NCBI GenBank assembly: GCA_037043015.1
Contig: CM073327.1
Location: 10,274,727-10,338,726 of the forward strand
Length of the DNA stretch: 64,000 nucleotides
From: Bryum argenteum
Taxonomy: Eukaryota > Streptophyta > Bryopsida > Bryales > Bryaceae
Direction: 5' to 3'
The notes below the pieces were generated by a model. The model searched no databases. It was not told where the DNA came from and saw nothing but the letters and a program-made list of their open reading frames with translations. The position numbers and the translations under genes are program-made. How positions within the stretch are numbered: position 1 is the stretch's first letter; the number at the start of each line of letters is the position of its first letter. Shown piece by piece: positions 88 through 61,026 of the stretch.

Positions 88-3000
88 ATGGCAGCCGCGA
101 GCATGAGCTGGGCCGTGGCGGCCTCGACCGCATGGCTGTCCTCCAGCAAGCAACAAGCGGAGGGATTGCGCTCGCTCTTGCTCCCCGCTGGGGTTCGAGT
201 GGTAGGTGGTCTCAAATGTAGCAGTACTAGGGCATTACCGACGTGTGCCGCCTCCTTTGACGAAGCTGGTTCGGGCAAGAGCTTTGATGAAGCTGCCTCG
301 GGCAAGAGCAGCAATGGATTCGTGGACATGGGTGTGCTGCCCATCCAATTCGAAAACGGCCAAGATCCTCCCACTGTTGTCTTCGCTCCCAATCGCCGGA
401 TCGTCGCCAGTAAGCTCTCTTTTCTCCTCAATTGCCCTAAATTCTATGCATAAGACAATCTTCACTTCTTTTTTTCACTGAATGTTATTATTCTTTGTTC
501 AATTGACCTAATCACAGTATTCAGAAAAAGAAAGCTTATCTGGCAGTTTTTTCTTTTCTTATATGAATCTGTGCAATTTGCATACTTTCCGCCTCCAGTA
601 CCCCGAATTGTCTGCATTAAATAAATCTGCTCTTGTTTGAGATATTTGAGTCTTCTGTTTGACGAGTCGCTTGATTTTTGGACAAAACGGATGTTGTTAT
701 CTGTCTCAAATAAACCATACAGAAAAGTTTGTTTTTGGGCTTGATCTGGCATCCGTGCAAGGCTGTAGATATTCCATATTGTCAATACTGTGAAATTGGG
801 AGTATTGAATTGTGAGATTGCTGCAGTCGGTGATTTGCACGGGGATTTGGAGAGGACGCAGTCGGCTTTGCAACTTGCTGGCGTTTTGAGCACGGATGGC
901 GAGCATCGATGGGTTGGAGGCACCACGGTACTGCAATCACTTTTCTTTCTTAGCTTTCAGTAGAAATTTCGACACTGACACCAAAGTTATCTGCAAAAGA
1001 TCGACTTCTAGAAGGCCATGAAATTCCTTCACACTTAATTTGTGTATTTCTTGAATGATACTATATCTGAATCGAACTCTTAGATCACATATGCAAAAGT
1101 TAACACTGATATGAAACTTACATATCATTGAGAGTACCTCCTTCGGTTTCGAAGTCACGAACTGCAAAAGGTTTCACTCATGGAGACACCTACTTCTGGA
1201 GTCGGAAAGATTAGGGTGTGCTCATGTACAGTCGCTGTTTTCCTCTCCATTATGGATAGGCCTACTTTTGAAGTTATGATTCGATTGTAAGCTTCTTTTG
1301 GTGCAGGTGTTGGTGCAAGTGGGTGATGTACTTGATCGGGGAGAGGATGAGATAGCGATTTTGTCGTTGTTAGCATGGCTGGGCAAGCAAGCTCGCAGCA
1401 AGGGTGGGGCTGTGTTTCAGGTTTTGGCCGACATACAAATTGCTTCGCAAACTTGATCGTTTTTGAGTTAAGTCAGTTTTTGACGTTCCTTTTGTGTGTG
1501 TGTTTTGTTAGATTCTTGGCAACCATGAGACTATGAATGTAGCTGGTGATTTTCGGTACGTCGCTCCCGGAGGCTTCCATGAAGCGGAATTGTTTGCAGA
1601 GTATTGTGAGCAGGACCATGGCGGTAACTGGGATGCTGCTTTTGAGGCTTGGCATGAAGCATCTCAAGAGTTGAAGAGAACTCGTGAAGCTGGGTTCACT
1701 AGCTGGTTGCCTATGTTCAATCCCATCAAGGTACAACACTGCACCCCATCCACACTAACGAGCCTTAATAATCATTAATTATGGACTTTCTTCTATGACC
1801 AGTTAGATAAATAAGTTCAATATCATATCATTATGAAGTCCCTCTAGCCGATCGAGTCCCGAGGATTTCATATGTCAACATACTGAATGAGGAGTTCGGA
1901 CAAGTTCCTCGTCTGGTTAGGTTTATCATAGAATCCATGAGCTTCTCGTGGAGAGCATCATTGATTATATGCACTATACATGATACTGGATCCTCGATAA
2001 CCTCAAGAAGATTAATGTTCCAAACCGAAAAGTGTGCGAAACTTGACCTAATTGGTCATTTACATGCGACTTGGCGTGTTACTTCTTTCAGATTCAGAAG
2101 GGGATTGTAGCAAGGACGAAGCTATTGTCTCCAGGAGGGCCATTGGCGATGCAATTGGCTTCTCATGGAGTTGTACTGAAAGTAAATGACTGGCTATTTG
2201 CACATGGAGGAGTCCTGCCTCATCATGGTCAGAGCTCTTACTTTCATGTCTGCGTCTTCCCACTTTTTTAGCGTGATTCTGATCTTCCATGTTCATTGGT
2301 CTTGCACTCCATTCAATTCAAATTTCTTGTCTCCAACGAAGTGATGCTCTATTCGTTTGCAGTGGACTACGGATTGGAGAGGATGAATCGGGAGGTAAGC
2401 TTGTGGATGAAGATGGGCAACAACAGATGGGGCAAGCCTGCGGAAATGCCGTTCGTTGCTGTCAAAGGGTTCGACAGCATAGTGTGGAGCAGGTTGTACT
2501 CCAAGGAGAATTTTGATCGACCCCAAGAGAAGATTCAGGTATTAACCAAATCATTCTTAAAAAAGGTGGTTCATTCCTCTTAGCCGTTTTGATTACATTC
2601 AGAAAAACATCAATGTGGTTGATATGGTGTTTGATTCTTGGAATTCAGGCATGTGGTATACTTGCAGCAGCTCTGTCTGCAACCAATTCACGTGGCCTTA
2701 TCGTCGGCCACACTCCACAAACAGTCGGTGCGAACTGGTAACTCCTCCAACCTCCGTAATCTTCCTCCAGTATTTTGACGCCTTGGCACACAATAGTCTC
2801 TTGGAACTTCCGAAGTCCAGATTATCTATTCGCATTATACCTATCATTGATAGCTTCCTGTGTGATCAGTTATCTTATTCATAAAAAATAATCATCGGAA
2901 AAGGTTTTGAGCAGCTTAGGACGAGACATTGTTTTCATTACTAGAGATTATGAGAGCTTATCATAAGCAGAATGCCTACACATCAGTGAGTAAGAACTGC

Positions 3001-3491
3001 TGGAGCCTCGAAGTAGGTCCTTCCTACCTATTCAACAGTATCCGAGGCTGCATTTAAACCCCTTTTAAAACCTCAGTAAGAATATTCCTGTACTCAAACA
3101 GCAATTGAATTGATGATACTTGCAGCAAGTGTGATGGGCGAATCTGGCGAATAGACGTTGGCATGTCGAGTGGGGTCCTTCATGCTCTTCCCGAGGTAAA
3201 AATCTTGAGCTTCTTCTTTGCTGATCTTTACATCGACACCCTATTCTATCTAGTATTAATTCTGTGCTTCTATTTTAAGATCGCTAAACATATGATTACC
3301 CAAAATAGTTCAATCAGTTCCATGTAAAGCATGATCATGGTTTTAATCGGTAACTTGCTTGGTGAGTGCAGGTATTGGAGATTGTGGACGACAAGGTGAG
3401 GATCATGACAGTGACGGAGGAGTTTCTTCCGGGAGAGTTTTCAGAAGAGGAGTCTAGTTGGAAAGGCAAACTAGAAGTACAAAAATCGTAG
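88..3491 (+). CDS. SLP1: Shewanella-like protein phosphatase (SLP1-type, chloroplast), 9 exons
   Basis: PPP-family metallophosphatase of the Shewanella-like group; Arabidopsis SLP1 is plastidic. Proposed exons: 88-409, 827-927, 1307-1420, 1512-1730, 2092-2227, 2363-2538, 2649-2737, 3126-3195, 3372-3491, all GT-AG with continuous frame, giving about 448 aa. Seen: GDLHGD (formed across the first junction), GDVLDRG, GNHE, HGGVLPHH and GHTPQ, the metal-binding and catalytic motifs of the family in the right order. The first ~70 residues are Ala/Ser-rich with few acids, like a transit peptide, and contain a small internal duplication (FDEAGSGKS/FDEAASGKS). The 5' edge of exon 5 is uncertain: an in-frame AG at 2096-2097 would drop two codons. 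Start chosen at the first ATG opening the long frame; a short uORF precedes it. No break seen, so probably functional. Confidence 0.93.
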
Positions 3492-17482: not shown

Positions 17483-19106
17483 CAGTGTGTGGCAAAACGG
17501 AGTCAAACTCTTGAAATTCGTAATTTGATAAGCAATGTGGAAAACTTGGCAATAGATTTTTAGAATGTGTAAATTGTGCAATATAGCAATTTGAATGGGC
17601 TACAATTTGATGGAGAAGAAGTTCCTTCTTACATTGAAATGTACAAGAAAATTACATTTAAAGGAAACTATGTTCATTGACTCACTTTTGCATCCACTAT
17701 CAAAAAGCAACTCAATATTTTGTCTACTTGCCTTTAGCGGCTAAAACTGCTTGGATCCGCCTTGGCATGCTTTCATACAACCTCCTACACTCCTCTATTG
17801 CTAAAGAAGCCCAACACTCCTCAATACGCTCCCACAATTCTAAAATTCCTGTTGGAGCCCTTTCATACTGGTTAAGACGACGTTTGATCCAAATTAAAAG
17901 ATGCTCAATTGGATTCAAGTCAGGAGATTGTGCAGGCCACTTAAGAACATCAAAATTTTGTGATCTCAACCATTGCCGAACACTTTTTGTCGTATGTTTG
18001 GGATCATTATCATGCTGAAAAATCAAATTTGAAGGATCAAGATCATATGCACAGATGGTATACAATAAATCTCTTTGCAAGATTTCTTTATATTGATGTT
18101 GATCCATTCTTCCTTCGATTCTACATAACATACCAGGGCCATGGAATGTCATGCAACCCCATACCATCACCGAACCACCGCCAAACTTCACATCACATTG
18201 CACACTTGTCTTGAATCACAAGATTGTTCATTGCGAATCCAACACCAACTACGACCATCCGAGCAAAATCGATTTACCTTGGTCTCATCGTAAAAGATGA
18301 CATGCTTCCAAATCACCAACGGTCCAATGTTGATGGCGCCTAGCAAATTCAAGTCGATCCTTAATGTGTTTCTGGTTCAATTTTGGTTTCTTATGCTTCA
18401 CTTTTGATCTCAAGCCTGCTGCACGTAAAGTCCTTCGCACTGTATCAACACTCACAGTAACATGGCATTCCTTGCGTACATGTTGGGCAACTTGTGTAGC
18501 ATTTTCAAAACCTCCTGATGTGACAGCACGAACACATGCTCTCTTCTGTGCATCACTTAGCACTTGTAGTCTACCACCACTACTAGCTGACAAATCACAT
18601 AATCTCTTCTTTCTAAGTCTTGCAACATGGCTCTGAGACACCTGCAACTCATGTGCTACATCTCTTGTAGTCCTACCAGCTTGCAACATCACCAAAATGG
18701 AGTTATCAAGGTCTTTTCGAGCACTACCACAAAGCTCATCTAAGTGCACCATGGTCTGTCCTCACACTCTGCTTACAATGTGCAATAAGTTGACATGGAG
18801 TATGTCAAGATAGACACTCCTTGTGCCTATGCCAATCTGGTCATAAAAGTCTTCCATCCATTTTTTACCACTTCATTGCATTTATTATGGCATGCCATGC
18901 AAAACTGAGTCAAGCCAAGTGTATGTGTTGGAAGACATGTATCTCCTTATAACTTTTTTATATGTCACCATGGATGCTATGTCAACTAATACACTCCATA
19001 TTATATGTCCTCCATGTTAAAAATGGTCATTTCATTATTGAGTTGTTAGGAATTGACGGCCAAATAATCTCTTTCAACAAGGTTGACTCAGTTTTGCCAC
19101 ACACTG
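17483..19106 (-). mobile_element. Tc1-type transposon, 1,624 bp, with TIRs and TA duplication
   Basis: The ends CAGTGTGTGGCAAAACGGAG and its inverted partner (TTTTGCCACACACTG at 19092-19106) are flanked by TA on both sides (17481-17482 and 19107-19108). Removing the element and one TA restores a satellite unit. It encodes a broken transposase on the minus strand. Confidence 0.95.
17724..18752 (-). pseudogene. Tc1 DD34E transposase, frameshifted
   Basis: This is the DDE transposase of the surrounding element. The N-terminal part (18752-18285) has the tandem helix-turn-helix DNA-binding region (TRDVAHELQVSQSHVARLRKK and a second HTH). The catalytic part (18203-17724) shows FGGGSVMVWG, QHDNDPKHT and SPDLNPIEH. 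Thirty-four residues separate the second Asp from the Glu, which is the Tc1 spacing rather than the DD39D of typical plant mariner-like elements. Between the parts, a one-base insertion in a T-run near 18310 and a second shift near 18210 break the frame through the first catalytic Asp region (FYDETK in another frame). The copy therefore cannot make a full enzyme. There are no introns. Confidence 0.92.
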
Positions 19107-24845: not shown

Positions 24846-25095
24846 TCACTGTCCTGAGAAGAAACTAAACAAATCTGCAGAAGTCGATCGGTCCGGAAGC
24901 GAAAGATCATGCAACTCTTGACGAATTGCTTCGGAAAATTCAGTTTCAGATTCAAACGGGGTAAAACTGCAATTAAAGCGGGATCTCAAAGTAAAGAGCG
25001 GATACTGCAATGATACCGCATAAGAGGGAGGTGGATCACCTTTCAGCACACGACTATACTTGAGCAGGATCTGTTCTATAGTGCGTACATCTGAT
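24846..25095 (-). CDS. Possible terminal exon of an unknown gene
   Basis: On the minus strand a CACAG acceptor at 25096-25100 opens an 82-codon frame ending in TGA at 24846. The peptide (SDVRTIEQILLKYSRVLKGD at its start, acidic/Ser-rich tail) has normal composition and no family I recognise. It lies downstream of the HAD/terpene-cyclase relic on the same strand and could be its last exon or a separate gene. Other frames at 25210-25335 and 25560-25728 may be further exons, but no consistent splice chain was found. Confidence 0.25.
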
Positions 25096-26049
25096 CTGTG
25101 TATTCACACATAGACAAGTATCCCAACCCGGACGATGACGCAGGGTCATGAGCGCGATTGCCGCGGTCGTGCAAGACGAACGTCCGTCTGCACATTCCGA
25201 TGGGCGGAGGCCGTTTTGACGGGTCTCACTGCTTTTTAGTTCGAATGGGTGATCGATCGCCATTGCTGTGGATTCTGCTATTCTCCTCCCACTATCGAAT
25301 GTAAGAAATTCATTGTTCGTACCGTCGTTCGACAATGTATACAGACAGTCACTACTCCATGTTGTGCACGTACTGCAAGTGCGTCGTCGAGGTATGGTGA
25401 CATCTCCTAAGAAAGTTTGTAATTCTGAAACAAACTCAGAGGAATGTTTACTTGGGATGTATCAATGCATGTCAGATTAGATGCGGCACCATATCTTTTG
25501 CACTGTTTAGTTCTAAAACTGAGCGAATCCTAATCTCGTGACGAGAGCTATGATGTACCTGTCGTTTCGTAAGCAGGGTTTTCTTCTCCCTACTTCTCGA
25601 TTGTTGATTGAAATCCGTATCATCAATTTGGGCTTGAAAGCACTGGAGAAGCCGTGTTTCTCATCTCTGGCAGCGAACCACTTGTGCATTGCAGCATTTA
25701 ACAGAGTAAGAAACATGCATTGCAGCATTTAACAAAGAAAGACAGAGGAGCACGCACAACTTCAGCATGGAAATTTGAATCTGCAACCATGTCATCGGTG
25801 ATAGTGAGCCTCGAGCACCACATGGTTCTCATCAGTTTTGTATCGAACACGTTAATGAATTAGATTCCATTATAATGAGAAGAATTACACATTTTGAGTC
25901 CAACGAAATGGGTTTTTGTTGCAAGGGAGGGGCACGTGATGTACAGGAAAGTTGTTGAAAGGCAAATCTTGTACTGTATGGTGAAACTCATAGAAAGATT
26001 GTTGAAATGGGAAAGGAAATGATCATAGCAGACTAAATCGGATATTGAA

Positions 26050-27265
26050 TGTACATTCCAAAAGGAAAGCAAGATCCATACTACAATGAAAAGCTTCGAT
26101 GATGTTCCAACCCCTGCTTGCAATTCGATGTGCAGCGACAGCAAAAGCAATAGTGGTGAGATCGTTAGCAAACCAGCTCTTGTGGTCACAATAAGAATAA
26201 TACGAGCACATGGTCCATTCTGCGCCGCAGTGGATTGAAGTACACCGTAAACAGTCCGTCTTCATTCCTGTACTCCAGCATCGTGTCTAACACTCGGTTA
26301 ATCGTGTCCATGTCCACCATATTTCCAAAACCATGCATCATTGATTATGCCATTGACGTTGTGTCCATCAGGGAAATTCTGGTGGCTTCTTGCATTCTCA
26401 GTTTCATGAGAAGGTCGACGACGTTCCGCTCCGGGAAGGAGTTGAATCGCCTTGTTTCTGGAGCTTCTTGCACAGGGAGGTAACTAGGATCGTTCAGAAG
26501 CTCCGCCATGAGGAACAGGTCGTAGTCAACTTGAACCTTGACGCCTTCGAAGGTGATAGATGGCTGACCTTTGTTTGTGTGGAGAAAACCGCTAATTGTT
26601 CTTCTTCCGTGCGAAGGTGGTAAACCAGGAGGTCGACCGCGGAAGTTGGGTCATCAACGAGAACGGTGGTGAATCCCAGCACTTCGGCAGCTACGACGTT
26701 CTGCAACGTATCGTCGTCAAAGAGTGTCCGCGAGGGGAGACACTCACAAAAAATGGTGAAATTCTCCTAAGCTTGGCTTTCTAATTCCGACTGCCCCGGA
26801 GTAGAAAATGGCATCGAATTTCTGGAAGAGTTCTGGAAAGGCAGTGAGCATGGCGTCGTAGTCTTCCTTCGCAGCGTTTGTCATACAGTAGAGTTTCAGG
26901 TTGGACGACTGCCTCCTGAGAGCTTCGATGAGGGTGACAAGTTCGGGAACGGGAGCGAGAGAAGCGCGTGCTTTGACGACGAAGGTCTGAATGTCGGCCT
27001 CGGAGATTGTAGGTGCGAGATGAGCTAGTTCTTGTTGAGTCTGGGTCCAGGTAAACTTTCCCTCCTGATACCGGTGCCAGACATGGCTACGCATCATGCG
27101 TCTGACAACTTCGGGATGCAGAGCCATGCCGTGGCCCACATCCAGATTTGGCTTCAAAAGCACACCGTCAATGTTGAAGCAGACGTTCATGAACTGCCCG
27201 GTGCAACTCAAGTGCGGAATCACATTACTTACATTGTTCTCCGTCAGTCTCATATCGGACACCAT
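26050..27265 (-). pseudogene. HAD-type terpene cyclase (HAD + class II cyclase fusion), decayed
   Basis: In the fungal/bacterial family (for example AstC) a HAD phosphatase domain is fused to a class II-like cyclase that makes drimane-type sesquiterpenes. HAD part: FNIDGV (motif I, nucleophile Asp replaced by Asn) at 27178-27161, SHVWHRYQEGKFTW, CMTNAA (motif II), SGAVGIRKPS (motif III Lys) and LFDDDTLQNV (motif IV, DDD at 26710-26718). Cyclase part: SITFEGVKVQ, DTTS of a DxDTT motif (26357-26365), YRNEDGLFTVYFNP and HRIASRGW. These match the family order, but the frame changes at a six-T run (26748-26753), again near 26570-26600, by a one-base loss just before DTT, and after MDHVL. A TAA interrupts at 26345-26347. 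Neighbouring genes are intact, so sequencing error is unlikely. The later cyclase motifs were not found. The start is a guess. Confidence 0.75.
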
Positions 27266-27379
27266 CGGCACTGCCAGAACTAGCAACGTCCAATTCACCG
27301 AATGGACAATGCAAAGAACTCCGGAGTCAAAAGATCTTTGTTGCATTGACACAGTTGAAGCTCCCGATCGAACCTCCAC

Positions 27380-30300
27380 AACCTGAGATCTTCATACGGT
27401 GTATGAAATCTCGTAATTCGCGGCAGAGATATTTCATACCTGAAGGAGCGGGCACAGTGACCCCCGCTGTTTTGCTTCTGGACGGTTCGAGAATCTTCTG
27501 AGGGACACGCAGCGAGCAGTCGGTGATCTGTTGTACTGTACAGTTGCCGGCGCTGCTGGATTCGTTACCTGAAGTAAGCTACTATGCATATTCTGCTTAA
27601 ACTCATGCGACTGAAGCTAGCCAGCTTGCGCGCACTCAGTAACCAAGTTTCCACTTAACAGTAGCTTTGTCCTAGCGAGCTTCAATTGCGTGGAGTAGGT
27701 CCAAGAGCAGTTGTACGAATCAGTATCGGACACTGATCTGTAGCATGCGTTCGAACTTGGAATTGTAGGTTCTGAAAAGCCGCCATCTAATGAAGGGCTT
27801 GTTCCGTGGGCATCCTGAACTTCGATACCAGAGGAAGTCACATCAGAAGTCAAAGGCCAAATGTAGATGGAGTAGTGGAAAATGCAGATACAGCAAACGA
27901 AGTCGTTGAAGAGTATGATACAAACGATTCACTACACTCCAAGGCGGACGTACAGGTGTGGATTGGATAACTGATTTTACCTATCTGAGTAGCTTTCATA
28001 ATGAAGGAGGCTGTCGGGAGCATGAGATAAGTGCTGCTCCAAGACTCTTACACTAGATAGTGCATATTCCTACTAATACTTGGATCAAACAGAAGAAAAT
28101 ACGAATACCTTCTCGCACTTTTTGAAGGAAGGAGCGGTGACGGCTTGCAGCCACAGTTTGTCGCGTCTTTTGTTTCTGAGTGGGTCACAAAGTAAGAAGT
28201 TAGTTGTTACTGAAAGTCCACTTCCTGGTTGTGGCGTGTGTACAGCACACATGAGACACACGTGAAAGACAACGACAAATCTACCCGAAAGACACTGAAT
28301 CATGACTGGTCACTACATGGTGGATCACACTAAATTCGGCTTGCTTAGTCCATCACAGGAACCAGTCGAACTAGAATTCAAGTGCTTGCAAAAAGCCACA
28401 TGAAAACATCATTTCCTGCCCAGAGTAACGTGTACAGTTTGCATGTACGCATAGTGGGATATAGCATAACTGCCAAAAAGCATGTTCGAGTGGTGGCGTT
28501 GACACCGGTGACTTGCTGGAAGAACGCCGGGGACGGCCATGGCCACGTCCATCACATACGAGCTGGACACGATGCAGGATGTTGAGAAGCGGGTGCTGGC
28601 ACCCGCAGACACGTTCTAGGTGCCGCGAATGCTCGGCACAATGCATCTATCCTCCTCCCCCGATCATTTTCATGACATTATTTCTTCAAACCTTCAAACC
28701 TAGTTCCCTACTTGCTCTCACTGTCAGTTGCTCTACGTTTATACACCAACAAAATTGATATCCTTGCCCCGGCTTGATTTCTAATCTTAAGTCTAAATAC
28801 ACTTTCTGAAGTAGATCATTTCGTATTCTCATGCGTTTTCTCAGAGGCTTTGGGACGAAGTTCTCAGGCTTTGGGACTAAGTCCTCTAGGACCTTCAGCC
28901 TCGCAATTGATTGTTGTTCATTACTTTTAATAACATTTTAGAATAATTTAAATTGGGTGTTGTCCGGGCCTAGACCATGTCTCCCAAAATTGATAAATCA
29001 GTACACATAGAGCGTAAGAGAATTTCACAATTTGAGGTCAGAATGGGATCAGGTGTTTTCAAGTCTTACTGATAATGAATAGACTAAAAAGGGAACTTGC
29101 TCAGTCGTAGGTTTCCTGCGTTCAATGACGTGGACTACACAATTGCTCTCTGGCGAGAATCGCCCATCACAAGGCTCTCTAACTTGACTTTATTTTTATT
29201 TCTTATAAAACCCTGAGAGGAGAACTTTTGGCCGCTGAGGAGGGCTCTGACCCCGCTGGCGTTTTAAGCTTTGTTTGGTTGTTTCGGTCCCTTTCAAAGC
29301 TAGTTTGATATTGTAGTTTTGTAAATCCTCATGGCATGCATAATTGTTGGTATTTGAGGTGAGATTTGATGATTTTCATTTGAACAACATTTTCCTAAGA
29401 TATTGGTAAATCTAGAAATTTTTGATAGAAACATAATATTGATTAAATAAGAGCATCTTTCATTGCCCCCTCACGCCCCAAGTTGGAGCCATCTTCAAGA
29501 TCATTTTTTAATTCCCACCTTATGGAAGTATACAATTCATTGGTCAATGGGGTTGAAGTTCCTCATTCCCCTAAATAGTAATACTTCATCAATTGGAGAT
29601 ATGTTGTGATTGCTTCTAATTCAATCTAGCATTAACTCCAACATAGTATAAGCTGCAATGTGGCGTGTCTTGTATTTCAAAATTCTTAAGTACAAAGCTA
29701 ACTCCAATTATTGATATGTTGTTCCAATGCCATCATGGATTCATACTTTGATCATGATCCAAATGCCTCAAGCTTACCTTATACTGGTTGAGATGTAAAA
29801 TTTCCACAACTATTTTTCATATACGCCAATGAAATTAAAATATGACAACATATCCATCGCCATACAATGAAACTAAAGTATGGCAGCCCGCCTATTCAAA
29901 AGATGATGAAGAAGACAACCATGGCGTTAGTTAAGGTACTGAGAATGGTAGGATATTTTACACTCTTCATGGTAGAATGATATCATCTGGTGAGTGGGGA
30001 GAGATAGCTTGCCAAATGTAGGGCCTATTAGCTTAGAAAGGAGAAATCCATACCCCTTCAAACTTCCAAACCAACAAAAAGTTTGTATTGTAATGTATTA
30101 TCACATATATTGTATCAAATTGAGGCTTTTTCCTTAAGAAATAGTCCTTTATTTTTTCAAGAAATAGTTACAAGTGGCAGTGTGTCCCACCTACGGGCGC
30201 TTGAAATAGCCATAGGGTAAGTACAACTATTTTTAGACACTTTAGCCATTCACCATACTTGAATTGATGACACGTGTGATTTAATTACTATTTTTCAGTG

Positions 30301-58570: not shown

Positions 58571-59106
58571 TCGGACCTCGTTTTTTCGATTTTTGGCCAT
58601 TAAGTTCTAATGCGCATTAAGAATAAGTATAGTGTCTAGAATCCGACCTATGTATTTGTTAAGCCGTATATTATAAGGCAATTACGTTTTTACAAATAAG
58701 TGAATTAGTTAAAATCTAGTTTGTGTTAAGTAGGACAGATTTACCAATCCGTACTCTGTCCCCGTACGGCTAGGACGTGCTGTCAGAGGACGGATTAGGA
58801 GTTATGATCGTAGGTAAAGGACGGAGTGGCGAAGAATTTAATAATGGCGAGAAATCTAGAAGGCGACTCCGTACGGAGAGGACAATGATGGCGGCGGACC
58901 ATGTCATGATGGTCGGACTTAACTCCGGCTCCCTCGATATAAGGCAACCCGTCCGCCCTCGTCGTCACCTGCCTCCTCGTTTTCTGCGCCCTTTGTCGTC
59001 TTGCGCTCCTATCCTCCGTCTTTCCGCTTTCCGTCCTTAGCTCCGATCCGGCCCACTGGCCGATCTCAGCCCGGCGACTTTGTATTTCCTCGCGCACTTC
59101 TTTCCT
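58571..59106. other. Upstream region of the 639-aa ORF
   Basis: Composition shifts from AT-rich to balanced at ~58.7 kb. GGACGG and CCGTAC words recur here and downstream of the ORF (61.0-61.7 kb), suggesting that both flanks belong to one unit, though no long direct or inverted repeat was found by eye. Confidence 0.4.
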
Positions 59107-61026
59107 ATGGCAGGAACGGCGTCCACTTCCGCTCAAGAGCAAGAGGAGCTGAAGATCTCCATCAAGCTCGTGTCGCCGTGTATTCCGATCGAGGAGGATG
59201 AGAAGAAGTCCTTGACGGAAGACCTCGAGAGGATGGGGTTAGTCGGCCTGCTGGATACGCCCTGGGGTTTGCGCGACGCGGACATGGTGCGCGAGATCAA
59301 GGTCGGCGCGCCAAACCAGTTCGAGGGGACGGTTAGAGGGAAGCCGGCTTCCTGGACGGCCGACCACTGGAGAGCTGTTTACGGCCTGACCGTAAACAAC
59401 GGAGTAGGGTTGTGCGGCCGGAAACACAAGTGGGCGAAGAAGGCGTTCCACGGGGATCCGCACAAGAACAACGGCTACTCAATAGAAGATTGCAAGAATC
59501 CGAGGGAGCGCGCCGTCATCAAGTTCTTGGCGCCGATTATTCACGGGGAGAAGCCGCACCGCATCACCGTACGGCTGGCCAACACCGTCCTGGGGTCCTT
59601 GCGCGGCGAACGGGAGGCAGACTGGGGTATGATCATCCGCGACTTGGTCGCCCGGCTTGCGGAGAATGTAGGTAAAACCCGCCCTAGCCCTATTACTCCT
59701 TTTATCTATCACCTGTACAAGAAGGAGGAGGTGCTGACGGAGGAGGAGGAGTCAAACTATGAGATCGCGTTGTCGTCGCAAAACAACGGCGTGTTCGAGT
59801 CGGAGGAGAGTACGGATAGCAAGGCCGTGTACTCGGAGGAGGAGGAGGACGAGGTCGGATCAGACGACGAGGTCGGATCAGACGACGGGGACGTCCCACC
59901 GGACGCGCCAGAAGAGCCAGCTCCGGAGGCAACCCCACCGCGGACGAGTCCAGAGGTAATCATCCTTCCGTCCCTGTTCCCTCCCACGAACCCGACCGAG
60001 GCCGGAACTCAGACTGAGAGAGGGCAGCCTTCGAGGCCGGTGGATGAAGGGGAAGTTACGGCCGATTGGGAGAACCCCATGAATCCGAACGACCCCCGAA
60101 TCCCCCCACCTCTCAGTCCGTCCGCCAATCACCCGGATCCCATGAGGCGAGCATGGCACCACTTCACGGAAGCCAGGTGCCAGTACTTCTTCTACCAAGG
60201 ACTGCTGGCGAAGCTATGCCAAGAATTTGGAGTGAAGACGTTGCTGGAGGTCAAAAAGAAGTGGGAATCCAAGCCGGACAAGGAGCAGTTTCGACAAATG
60301 GAGAAGCAAGTGACCAAGCTTATCTTGGAGAATAGACGTCTTCGCGAGACGGTCAGAAGAAGGGAGGAAGAACTCCTGGTCGGAAGGCAGGCCGTAATCA
60401 CAGCAAACGAGCAGGTCGTAAAGCTCGTAGAAATCTGTGAGGTTCCGGCCGAGGTACTGCAGAAGGCGAACCTGTTCGATGCCGGAATCCTGGAATCAGA
60501 AGTATTCAAGGCGGAGACCTTCAAGAAGTTCCTCTTGGCGGCGAAGACGTACGCCACGAAGGTTGAGAAGAGCAACGCCGAGGTCAAGGTGCTGCTCGAC
60601 GCCGTCCGGGAGCAGATGAAGGAGGTAGTCATGCCGGCCTTCACTTCTACTCCGGCCAAGACCCCGCGGCCGGATACAGCGAGGACGGATGCTGGGCCCT
60701 CCAGTCCGACCGACACGAAGGGCAAGGCGAAGGTGAAGACGGAGACGGACGCACCCGCTCCAGCAGACTCTCCGGCCAAGAACACGCGCACCGCGAAGAG
60801 GAAGCTCACGGCCGAAGAATATGAGAAGTCTCCCGGGGCGCAGAAACTTTACGACATCGGCCTCGAGCACTCCGAAGAGGAAGAGTTGAAGAGCGGGGAC
60901 GAGACCAACTCCAGCGAGGACGAGTACGTGATAACGGATACGGGCAAGAGAGTGAAGGCAGGACGTATCGCAACAACGCCACTGAAGCGGCCGAAGCACA
61001 GAGTTAGTTCGCGAAGGAAGAGGTAG
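59107..61026 (+). CDS. Intact 639-aa GC-rich ORF, unknown, possibly element-derived
   Basis: A single exon with G/C-rich third codon positions, unlike its AT-rich surroundings. Start chosen at the ATG at 59107 (MAGTASTSAQ); the frame is open slightly further upstream without an ATG. Residues ~1-215 look globular (TADHWRAVYGLTVNNGVG, DWGMIIRDLVARLAEN, PSPITPFIYHLYKKEEVLT), with a distant feel of the plant transposon-associated or gag-like domains; I cannot name it firmly. Residues ~220-330 are acidic and Pro-rich and include a duplicated DDEVGSD. Residues ~390-520 are predicted coiled coil (KLILENRRLRETVRRREEEL). The C-terminus is Lys/Arg-rich, ending KRPKHRVSSRRKR, a likely nuclear signal. 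No zinc knuckle, protease, RT or DDE motif. It may be the gag-like product of an element or a lineage-specific nuclear protein. Confidence 0.6.
   Translation: MAGTASTSAQEQEELKISIKLVSPCIPIEEDEKKSLTEDLERMGLVGLLDTPWGLRDADMVREIKVGAPNQFEGTVRGKPASWTADHWRAVYGLTVNNGVGLCGRKHKWAKKAFHGDPHKNNGYSIEDCKNPRERAVIKFLAPIIHGEKPHRITVRLANTVLGSLRGEREADWGMIIRDLVARLAENVGKTRPSPITPFIYHLYKKEEVLTEEEESNYEIALSSQNNGVFESEESTDSKAVYSEEEEDEVGSDDEVGSDDGDVPPDAPEEPAPEATPPRTSPEVIILPSLFPPTNPTEAGTQTERGQPSRPVDEGEVTADWENPMNPNDPRIPPPLSPSANHPDPMRRAWHHFTEARCQYFFYQGLLAKLCQEFGVKTLLEVKKKWESKPDKEQFRQMEKQVTKLILENRRLRETVRRREEELLVGRQAVITANEQVVKLVEICEVPAEVLQKANLFDAGILESEVFKAETFKKFLLAAKTYATKVEKSNAEVKVLLDAVREQMKEVVMPAFTSTPAKTPRPDTARTDAGPSSPTDTKGKAKVKTETDAPAPADSPAKNTRTAKRKLTAEEYEKSPGAQKLYDIGLEHSEEEELKSGDETNSSEDEYVITDTGKRVKAGRIATTPLKRPKHRVSSRRKR

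Follow-up and report, generated by a model that had tools for sequence, protein, structure and literature searches.

A decayed fusion gene in the window

The window analyzed here (the whole 64,000 bp stretch, C7:10274727–10338726 of the assembly) carries on its minus strand the remains of a gene in which a HAD domain was followed by a terpene cyclase domain. Three-frame translation of this strand gives the motifs SGAVGIRKPS, LFDDDTLQNV, SITFEGVKVQ, DTTS, YRNEDGLFTVYFNP and HRIASRGW in frames 1, 2, 1, 1, 1 and 2, respectively, so a first-pass annotation of this DNA was right in reporting these six motifs in this order on one strand and in different frames. The PDB and paralogue matches given below put this observation far beyond chance. 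That annotation had the relic extend over 26050..27265. Its in-frame ATG does lie at 27265, but the last part that can be aligned with the nearest intact paralogue (on contig C2, below) stops at 26110 rather than 26050, and the aligned span is 27314–26110.

The whole relic (26110..27265, minus strand, as are all its parts given below) has 90.6% nucleotide identity to the C2 paralogue. Its first part, 26746..27265, is a HAD domain that is read in a single frame (Pfam PF00702, E = 3.8e-6) and has T in motif II and K in motif III; its motif I is FNIDGV versus FDIGGV in the intact paralogues, with Asn in place of the HAD nucleophile Asp. The part with HAD motif IV (LFDDDTLQNV, 26600..26746; genome match C7:10301292–10301483) is frame shifted by an 8 bp deletion, and after a 10 bp deletion the first frame is regained for the first half of the cyclase domain (26209..26591), which contains DTTS and YRNEDGLFTVYFNPLRRRMDHV. 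The relic reads LMDTTS here, the first Asp of the DxDT motif having been lost beside a frameshift, and directly past DTTS is a stop codon (26345..26347) that is the sole in-register stop relative to the C2 paralogue. The middle of the cyclase domain, including the Tyr that activates the catalytic acid (Tyr361 of AstC and Tyr427 of AsDMS; below), has been removed by an internal deletion of ~360 bp (26206..26210); blastn gives it one junction, at which window 26208/26209 equals 10768/10407 of the C2 region, whereas a local aligner breaks it into 154 + 208 bp. What is left beyond the junction is a C-terminal remnant (YSYCDHKSWFANDLTTIAFAVAA..RIASRG, 26110..26199; genome match C7:10300851–10300952), to which HRIASRGW belongs. 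The C2 paralogue ends in ...FAVAASRG, and the relic has a 12 bp in-frame insertion there. HRIASRGW stands close behind YFNP in the relic because the ~360 bp between them are lost.

Compared with that of C2, the coding part of the relic has thus lost 8, 10, 1 and 5 bp in four small deletions that each shift the frame, in addition to the ~360 bp deletion, and has gained three in-frame insertions and one in-register stop. Its substitutions are spread evenly across the three codon positions (36/394, 36/394 and 39/392). We regard the window copy as dead on the strength of these frameshifts, the stop and the large loss, as had been proposed for it. Introns can be ruled out as the source of the frame changes, since the C2 paralogue is unbroken there and the relic lost, and did not gain, sequence at each frame break. 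Sequencing error is unlikely, because 9.4% of the aligned bases differ from the paralogue, several of the deletions are multi-base and ~360 bp are gone.

When the relic is read through its breaks (with X at each), a PDB search matches it to AstC, the drim-8-ene-11-yl pyrophosphate synthase of Aspergillus oryzae (PDB 22TZ; PMC13244436; PMC5024094), in one stretch (E = 5.3e-19, query residues 64–363, chain residues 56–335), which bears out the proposal that this was an AstC-like fusion. It also matches AsDMS, the bifunctional drimenol synthase of Aquimarina spongiae (PDB 9MHS and 9M7D; PMC9128629, PMC12365925), in two stretches of the 9MHS chain (E = 2.5e-12). Elsewhere in the genome, an open frame of 536 codons without a break is 77% identical to residues 3–363 of the read-through (E = 2.2e-172).

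Intact paralogues and a segmental duplication

Three protein searches of the whole genome (a 258.8 Mb assembly in 25 contigs), with the relic, the C3 protein and the C2 protein as queries, agree on four HAD/cyclase loci, namely two relics (the window copy and one other) and two frames without interruption; only the best candidates were scored, and faint remnants could escape. The first-pass annotation had raised the prospect of an intact paralogue elsewhere in the genome, and there are two, at C2:17444320–17445885 (522 codons within the 536-codon open frame) and at C3:24194037–24195626 (530 codons), neither of which is interrupted by an intron. The second relic (C2:28514244–28515206) is without ~180–195 codons from the end of the HAD domain to the start of the cyclase domain and has a stop at the junction.

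Window positions 25020..27641 correspond to C2:17443166–17446124 in blastn pieces of 77.8%, 87.6% and 76.8% identity. A plant U3 snoRNA gene adjoins the relic at 25050..25225 on the plus strand (Rfam RF01847, 84.4 bits versus a gathering score of 80), and one also adjoins the C2 paralogue (99 bits with the same model). Because the cyclase gene and the U3 snoRNA are common to both segments, we conclude that a segmental duplication gave rise to the window relic and the C2 locus, and on the evidence of the two sequences the window copy decayed after it.

Genomic surroundings of the loci

The genes that lie near the four loci are those of a plant, as the first-pass annotation had supposed from the window. 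In addition to the U3 snoRNA (above), the window contains a KAI2-type hydrolase whose best match is “Pp-KAI2-like E” (E = 1.7e-162, 542 bits), with “PpKAI2-like C” also close and the best entry lacking a Pp name at 437 bits. On one side of the C2 paralogue, 4 to 14 kb away, are starch synthase, PsaF and an MlaE-type permease, and the U3 snoRNA is on the opposite side; this PsaF matches four PDB PSI-F chains at 444, 380, 337 and 333 bits, the next being at 267. We take the Pp names and PDB entries 6L35 and 7KSQ to be those of the moss Physcomitrium patens, and from the hydrolase and PsaF matches the genome is most likely that of a moss. Pfam finds a SINA-type ligase less than 1 kb off one end of the C3 paralogue and a kinase ~7.5 kb off the other, and a PRORP-type PPR gene ~3 kb from the second relic.

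Fungal or bacterial contamination of the assembly would account for the lack of introns in the cyclase frames and for a family that is otherwise microbial in the literature excerpts drawn on here. It is nevertheless very unlikely, given the plant genes that adjoin the loci; moreover, the loci sit on three chromosome-scale contigs (18.7, 30.6 and 34.6 Mb), two of the four copies are dead, and a plant U3 snoRNA was duplicated along with one of them.

Around the paralogues and the second relic, no P450 is present among the six flanking ORFs that match Pfam (a seventh ORF has no match), and no terpene-type gene cluster was seen there, the remaining flanking ORFs being judged by eye. Several kb from the second relic (positions 866–3349 of locus L021) are a piece of bacterial-type LSU rRNA, a 5S rRNA and two tRNAs, and this stretch resembles a nuclear insertion of plastid DNA. 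The window itself also has Tc1/mariner-type transposase frames at 17724–18752 (PF01498, PF13358) and, at 59080–61026, an open frame of 648 codons that Pfam does not match at E ≤ 0.001 and that is possibly part of a retroelement.

The canonical terpene synthase C-domain (PF03936) was found in three places in the genome, two of them adjacent at C3:24.41 Mb and one broken by stops. The only unbroken matches found, at C3:24410157–24410830 (L058, L059), have ~215 kb between them and the intact HAD-type cyclase of this contig, and this nearness is probably due to chance. Elsewhere on that contig (C3:13128394–13174975) are four tandem copies of a 215–216-codon frame with a HAD hydrolase match, one of which by eye resembles part of a copper-type P-ATPase; this array (C3:13.13–13.17 Mb) was considered as a partner for the cyclase and rejected, since by eye it appears to be part of a P-type ATPase.

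Domains and active-site residues of the intact proteins

AstC is the top match of the C2 protein in a PDB sequence search (E = 1.1e-54, residues 66–519 in one stretch), and AsDMS matches it in two stretches, 37–220 and 314–519 (E = 5.8e-35). Identities of the C3 and C2 proteins are 28.1% of 430 and 29.2% of 431, respectively, to AstC and 24.7% of 490 and 23.6% of 492 to AsDMS; the two microbial proteins are 24.4% identical to each other (of 435), and C2 and C3 are 58.7% identical (of 494).

Pfam and NCBIfam recognize nothing but HAD in the pieces of the window relic, Pfam likewise recognizes nothing but HAD in the intact proteins, and no Pfam terpene synthase N or C domain matches the C2 or C3 protein or the two pieces of the second relic at E values up to 10. 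These results could suggest that the window holds a generic HAD phosphatase pseudogene next to chance reading frames, with no cyclase, and the first-pass annotation had itself allowed for a generic HAD hydrolase with nothing cyclase-like past 26570. However, the AstC match of the relic runs through the cyclase domain, as the AsDMS match also extends past the HAD domain, and a whole cyclase domain is present in the two intact paralogues. In a control, Pfam gives no terpene-cyclase family for the AsDMS or AstC sequence either, so its silence on the cyclase half is uninformative. We give a generic HAD gene or chance frames a negligible probability and consider them ruled out by the full-length AstC, AsDMS and paralogue matches. 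The C2 and relic matches cover the fusion of a HAD domain with a class II cyclase β-type domain that makes up a HAD-type terpene cyclase (HAD-TC), and the C2 and C3 open frames run on through the cyclase domain, which sets them apart from stand-alone HAD hydrolases.

All four HAD motifs are kept in both intact proteins (I FDIGGV, II T, III K and IV DD), with Gln in place of the motif IV Glu of AsDMS (DDxxE). The class II acid motif is DLDTTS in C3 and DLDATA in C2, the latter with both Asp residues present but Thr274 lost (here and below in AstC numbering unless noted). Tyr309, Arg314, Arg316, Tyr360 and Tyr361 are present in C2 and C3 and also in AsDMS, and the acid-activating Tyr (Tyr361, or AsDMS Tyr427) is present in the second relic as well. 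Position 324, which is Asn in AstC and in all ten bacterial sequences (below), has Ile in C2 and Val in C3. The phosphate sensors Gln265 and Lys451 of AstC are replaced in the plant proteins, which also have Leu for Phe268, a residue that all ten bacterial sequences share with AstC. Positions 256 and 257 were left unused because they pair differently in the two alignments.

The changes D271A/N, D273N, T274A, N324A and Y361F are reported to abolish product formation by AstC (PMC13244436); C3 keeps four of these five essential positions (not Asn324) and C2 keeps three (neither Asn324 nor Thr274). For AsDMS, D331A/N, D333N, Y427F, Y373A and Y426A are reported to abolish activity and R378A to lose 96% of it (PMC12365925), and C3 carries the equivalents of D331, D333, Y373, R378, Y426 and Y427 (D, D, Y, R, Y and Y, with AsDMS residue numbers assigned by counting along the printed chain). 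Since the portions of the AsDMS study available to us do not count the Asn324 equivalent as catalytic (PMC12365925), we treat this residue as a difference within the HAD-TC family and not as a defining feature of it.

Selection and functional state

Comparison of C2 with C3 gives dN and dS values of 0.336 and 1.44 (NG86) or 0.323 and 2.22 (YN00), and their codon-position differences are 0.345, 0.220 and 0.508 over 510 codons. Third positions are also the highest between the second relic and C2 (0.176, 0.132 and 0.329), and this third-position excess between copies indicates that their divergence took place for the most part under protein-level selection. After its split from the window relic, the C2 branch shows changes at the three codon positions of 14/11/8 when polarized by C3 and 7/4/8 when polarized by the second relic. 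Because there is no third-position excess on this branch, selection on C2 may have been relaxed recently, although its frame is still open while its sister copy in the window took at least six disabling changes. Of the two, C3 is the better candidate for a working enzyme.

Relatives and origin

One scan of genome contigs with a four-row alignment gave 48 pattern matches, 12 of which are related loci with 24–28% identity. Ten of these are full HAD-TCs (nine Flavobacteriaceae and one Rhodobacteraceae), and the two from Actinomadura match in the cyclase part only. The Actinomadura loci (L034 and L035) have this cyclase-domain match without a HAD part, and by eye a P450-like frame follows in L034; L034 is cut by a contig end, so its HAD part may be missing from view. 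A frame of ~290–300 aa precedes the cyclase in eight of the ten bacterial HAD-TC loci (L025–L029 and L031–L033; none does in L024 or L030). From its GGKRIRP and DDIQD motifs we assume, by eye, that it encodes a polyprenyl diphosphate synthase, and together with the cyclase it probably forms an operon that supplies farnesyl diphosphate (FPP).

Among 296 genomes from the phylum of A. spongiae, 110 have a match at E ≤ 0.001, but among the matches listed none except that of the seed passes query residue 264, and the DxDTT motif is at ~313. Viral contigs gave no pattern match with the relic as query; with the alignment as query they gave 79 pattern matches, none of which is a relative. Thirty-four plasmid records matched an AstC fragment query, and none of the best 20 of the 34 extends past residue 163, approximately where the HAD domain ends. 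With the 12 related loci at only 24–28% identity, a recent transfer from a sequenced bacterium is not supported.

A 14-row tree unites the plant sequences (99/99) and sets plant plus AstC apart from the ten bacterial HAD-TCs (100/100); AstC, the single fungal row, is on a long branch (1.62) and the composition of the C2 row was flagged as atypical. A cyclase-domain tree of 13 rows (without the window relic, L026 and L027), rooted on the two Actinomadura rows, joins plant and AstC at 96/94, and in it a grouping of plant with Actinomadura is not rejected (p-AU 0.058). A fungal-type source is our best guess from these trees, and with one fungal sequence in them, acquisition from a fungus is what we infer. 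The sister relationship of the plant and fungal sequences relative to the bacterial HAD-TCs would also be expected if the family had been inherited vertically, or were a eukaryotic gene of greater age that mosses and fungi have retained, without any horizontal transfer, and the plant–AstC identity of only 28–29% points to an old split. We consider vertical inheritance rather unlikely, perhaps a minority chance that deserves mention, since the available text of PMC13244436 names only bacteria, Ascomycota and Basidiomycota as sources of the family and both intact plant frames are intron-free. A fungal-type origin is favored, on the one fungal sequence in the trees.

Predicted activity and its meaning

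The predicted proteins start with MGSDM (C2) and MEF (C3), which leaves no room for a long transit peptide ahead of the HAD domain, so the protein would be cytosolic and would meet FPP. In the mechanism we propose, FPP would be protonated at its terminal double bond by the second Asp of DxDTT, the C-terminal cyclase domain would close a bicyclic, drimane-type diphosphate skeleton, and the HAD domain, in which all four phosphatase motifs are kept, would afterwards remove phosphate in the manner of AsDMS or of AacA, the albicanoyl monophosphate synthase of Aspergillus aculeatus, described as a fungal HAD-TC with a working phosphatase (PMC13244436). The family would have been gained from a fungus-like source and kept under protein-level selection while it diverged, and two of the four copies found would then have been lost.

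Judged by these residues, the intact copies, and C3 above all, would work like AsDMS and AacA, and the activity is most likely class II cyclization of FPP plus dephosphorylation to give drimane-type sesquiterpenoids. Without Asn324, the enzyme could be weaker or could form another product. It is a possibility of some weight, though the lesser one, that the intact copies are not drimane synthases but use a new substrate, make a new product or are mainly prenyl phosphatases, as the change of Asn324 to Val or Ile, the replaced phosphate sensors Gln265 and Lys451, Leu at Phe268 and, in C2, Ala at Thr274 might suggest; against this, C3 holds all six of the residues at which changes leave AsDMS with little or no activity. 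Our overall reading, in which we have considerable confidence, is that the window gene is a pseudogene of a small HAD-type terpene cyclase family in what is most likely a moss nuclear genome, a family whose intact copies would work like AsDMS and AacA and whose source was probably fungus-like.

The HAD-type terpene cyclase family is a recent but known one, and its occurrence in a plant appears to be new within the literature searched: among the open-access papers listed, judged by their titles and the starts of their abstracts, we found no report of HAD-TCs in plants. Drimanes occur in some liverworts and a fern, and the text of PMC13364417 accessible to us names no gene for them; the intact HAD-TC genes in this moss-like plant are candidates for a bryophyte route to drimanes, and terpene formation here may follow a route so far unrecognized in plants. 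The probable transfer of the enzyme from microbe to plant has left living and dead copies in one genome, and the active sites of the plant enzymes differ from microbial ones at positions known to matter. A broader proposal, to which we give about even chances, is that a moss lineage acquired a HAD terpene cyclase of fungal type and still has one or more functional, bifunctional enzymes for drimane-type or new bicyclic sesquiterpenoids, with an acid-positioning network that differs from the microbial one in lacking Asn324, and that this is a third kind of land-plant terpene cyclase besides canonical terpene synthases (TPS) and the microbial terpene synthase-like enzymes (MTPSLs) of non-seed plants, which are terpenoid cyclases of bryophytes and likewise of microbial type (PMC13364417).

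Comparison with known terpene cyclases

The plant HAD-TCs differ from canonical TPSs and MTPSLs in having no Pfam terpene synthase match, whereas the canonical TPS piece of the same genome has one. In the Figure 1 legend of PMC13244436 the HAD-TC family is named from bacteria, Ascomycota and Basidiomycota only. Its fungal members form head-to-tail dimers in which the HAD and cyclase domains are in contact in trans. Like the plant proteins, AstC has a HAD domain and then a class II cyclase domain with a DxDT motif. It is described as without phosphatase activity (PMC13244436), and its HAD motifs II and IV show Ala and VDN instead of the Thr and DD of the plants; it also has Asn324 and Lys314 where they have Val or Ile and Arg, at 28–29% identity. 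AacA has the activity pattern that is predicted for the plant proteins, a likeness drawn from its description (PMC13244436).

AsDMS differs from the plant proteins in having DDxxE rather than DDxxQ at motif IV and Asn rather than Val or Ile at AstC position 324, and it is 24–25% identical to them. Its gene in A. spongiae is adjoined, by eye, by a polyprenyl-synthase-like frame, and none was noticed among the plant flanking frames. It is nonetheless like the C3 plant protein in being a fusion with four HAD motifs and with the D331, D333, Y373, R378, Y426 and Y427 equivalents in place.
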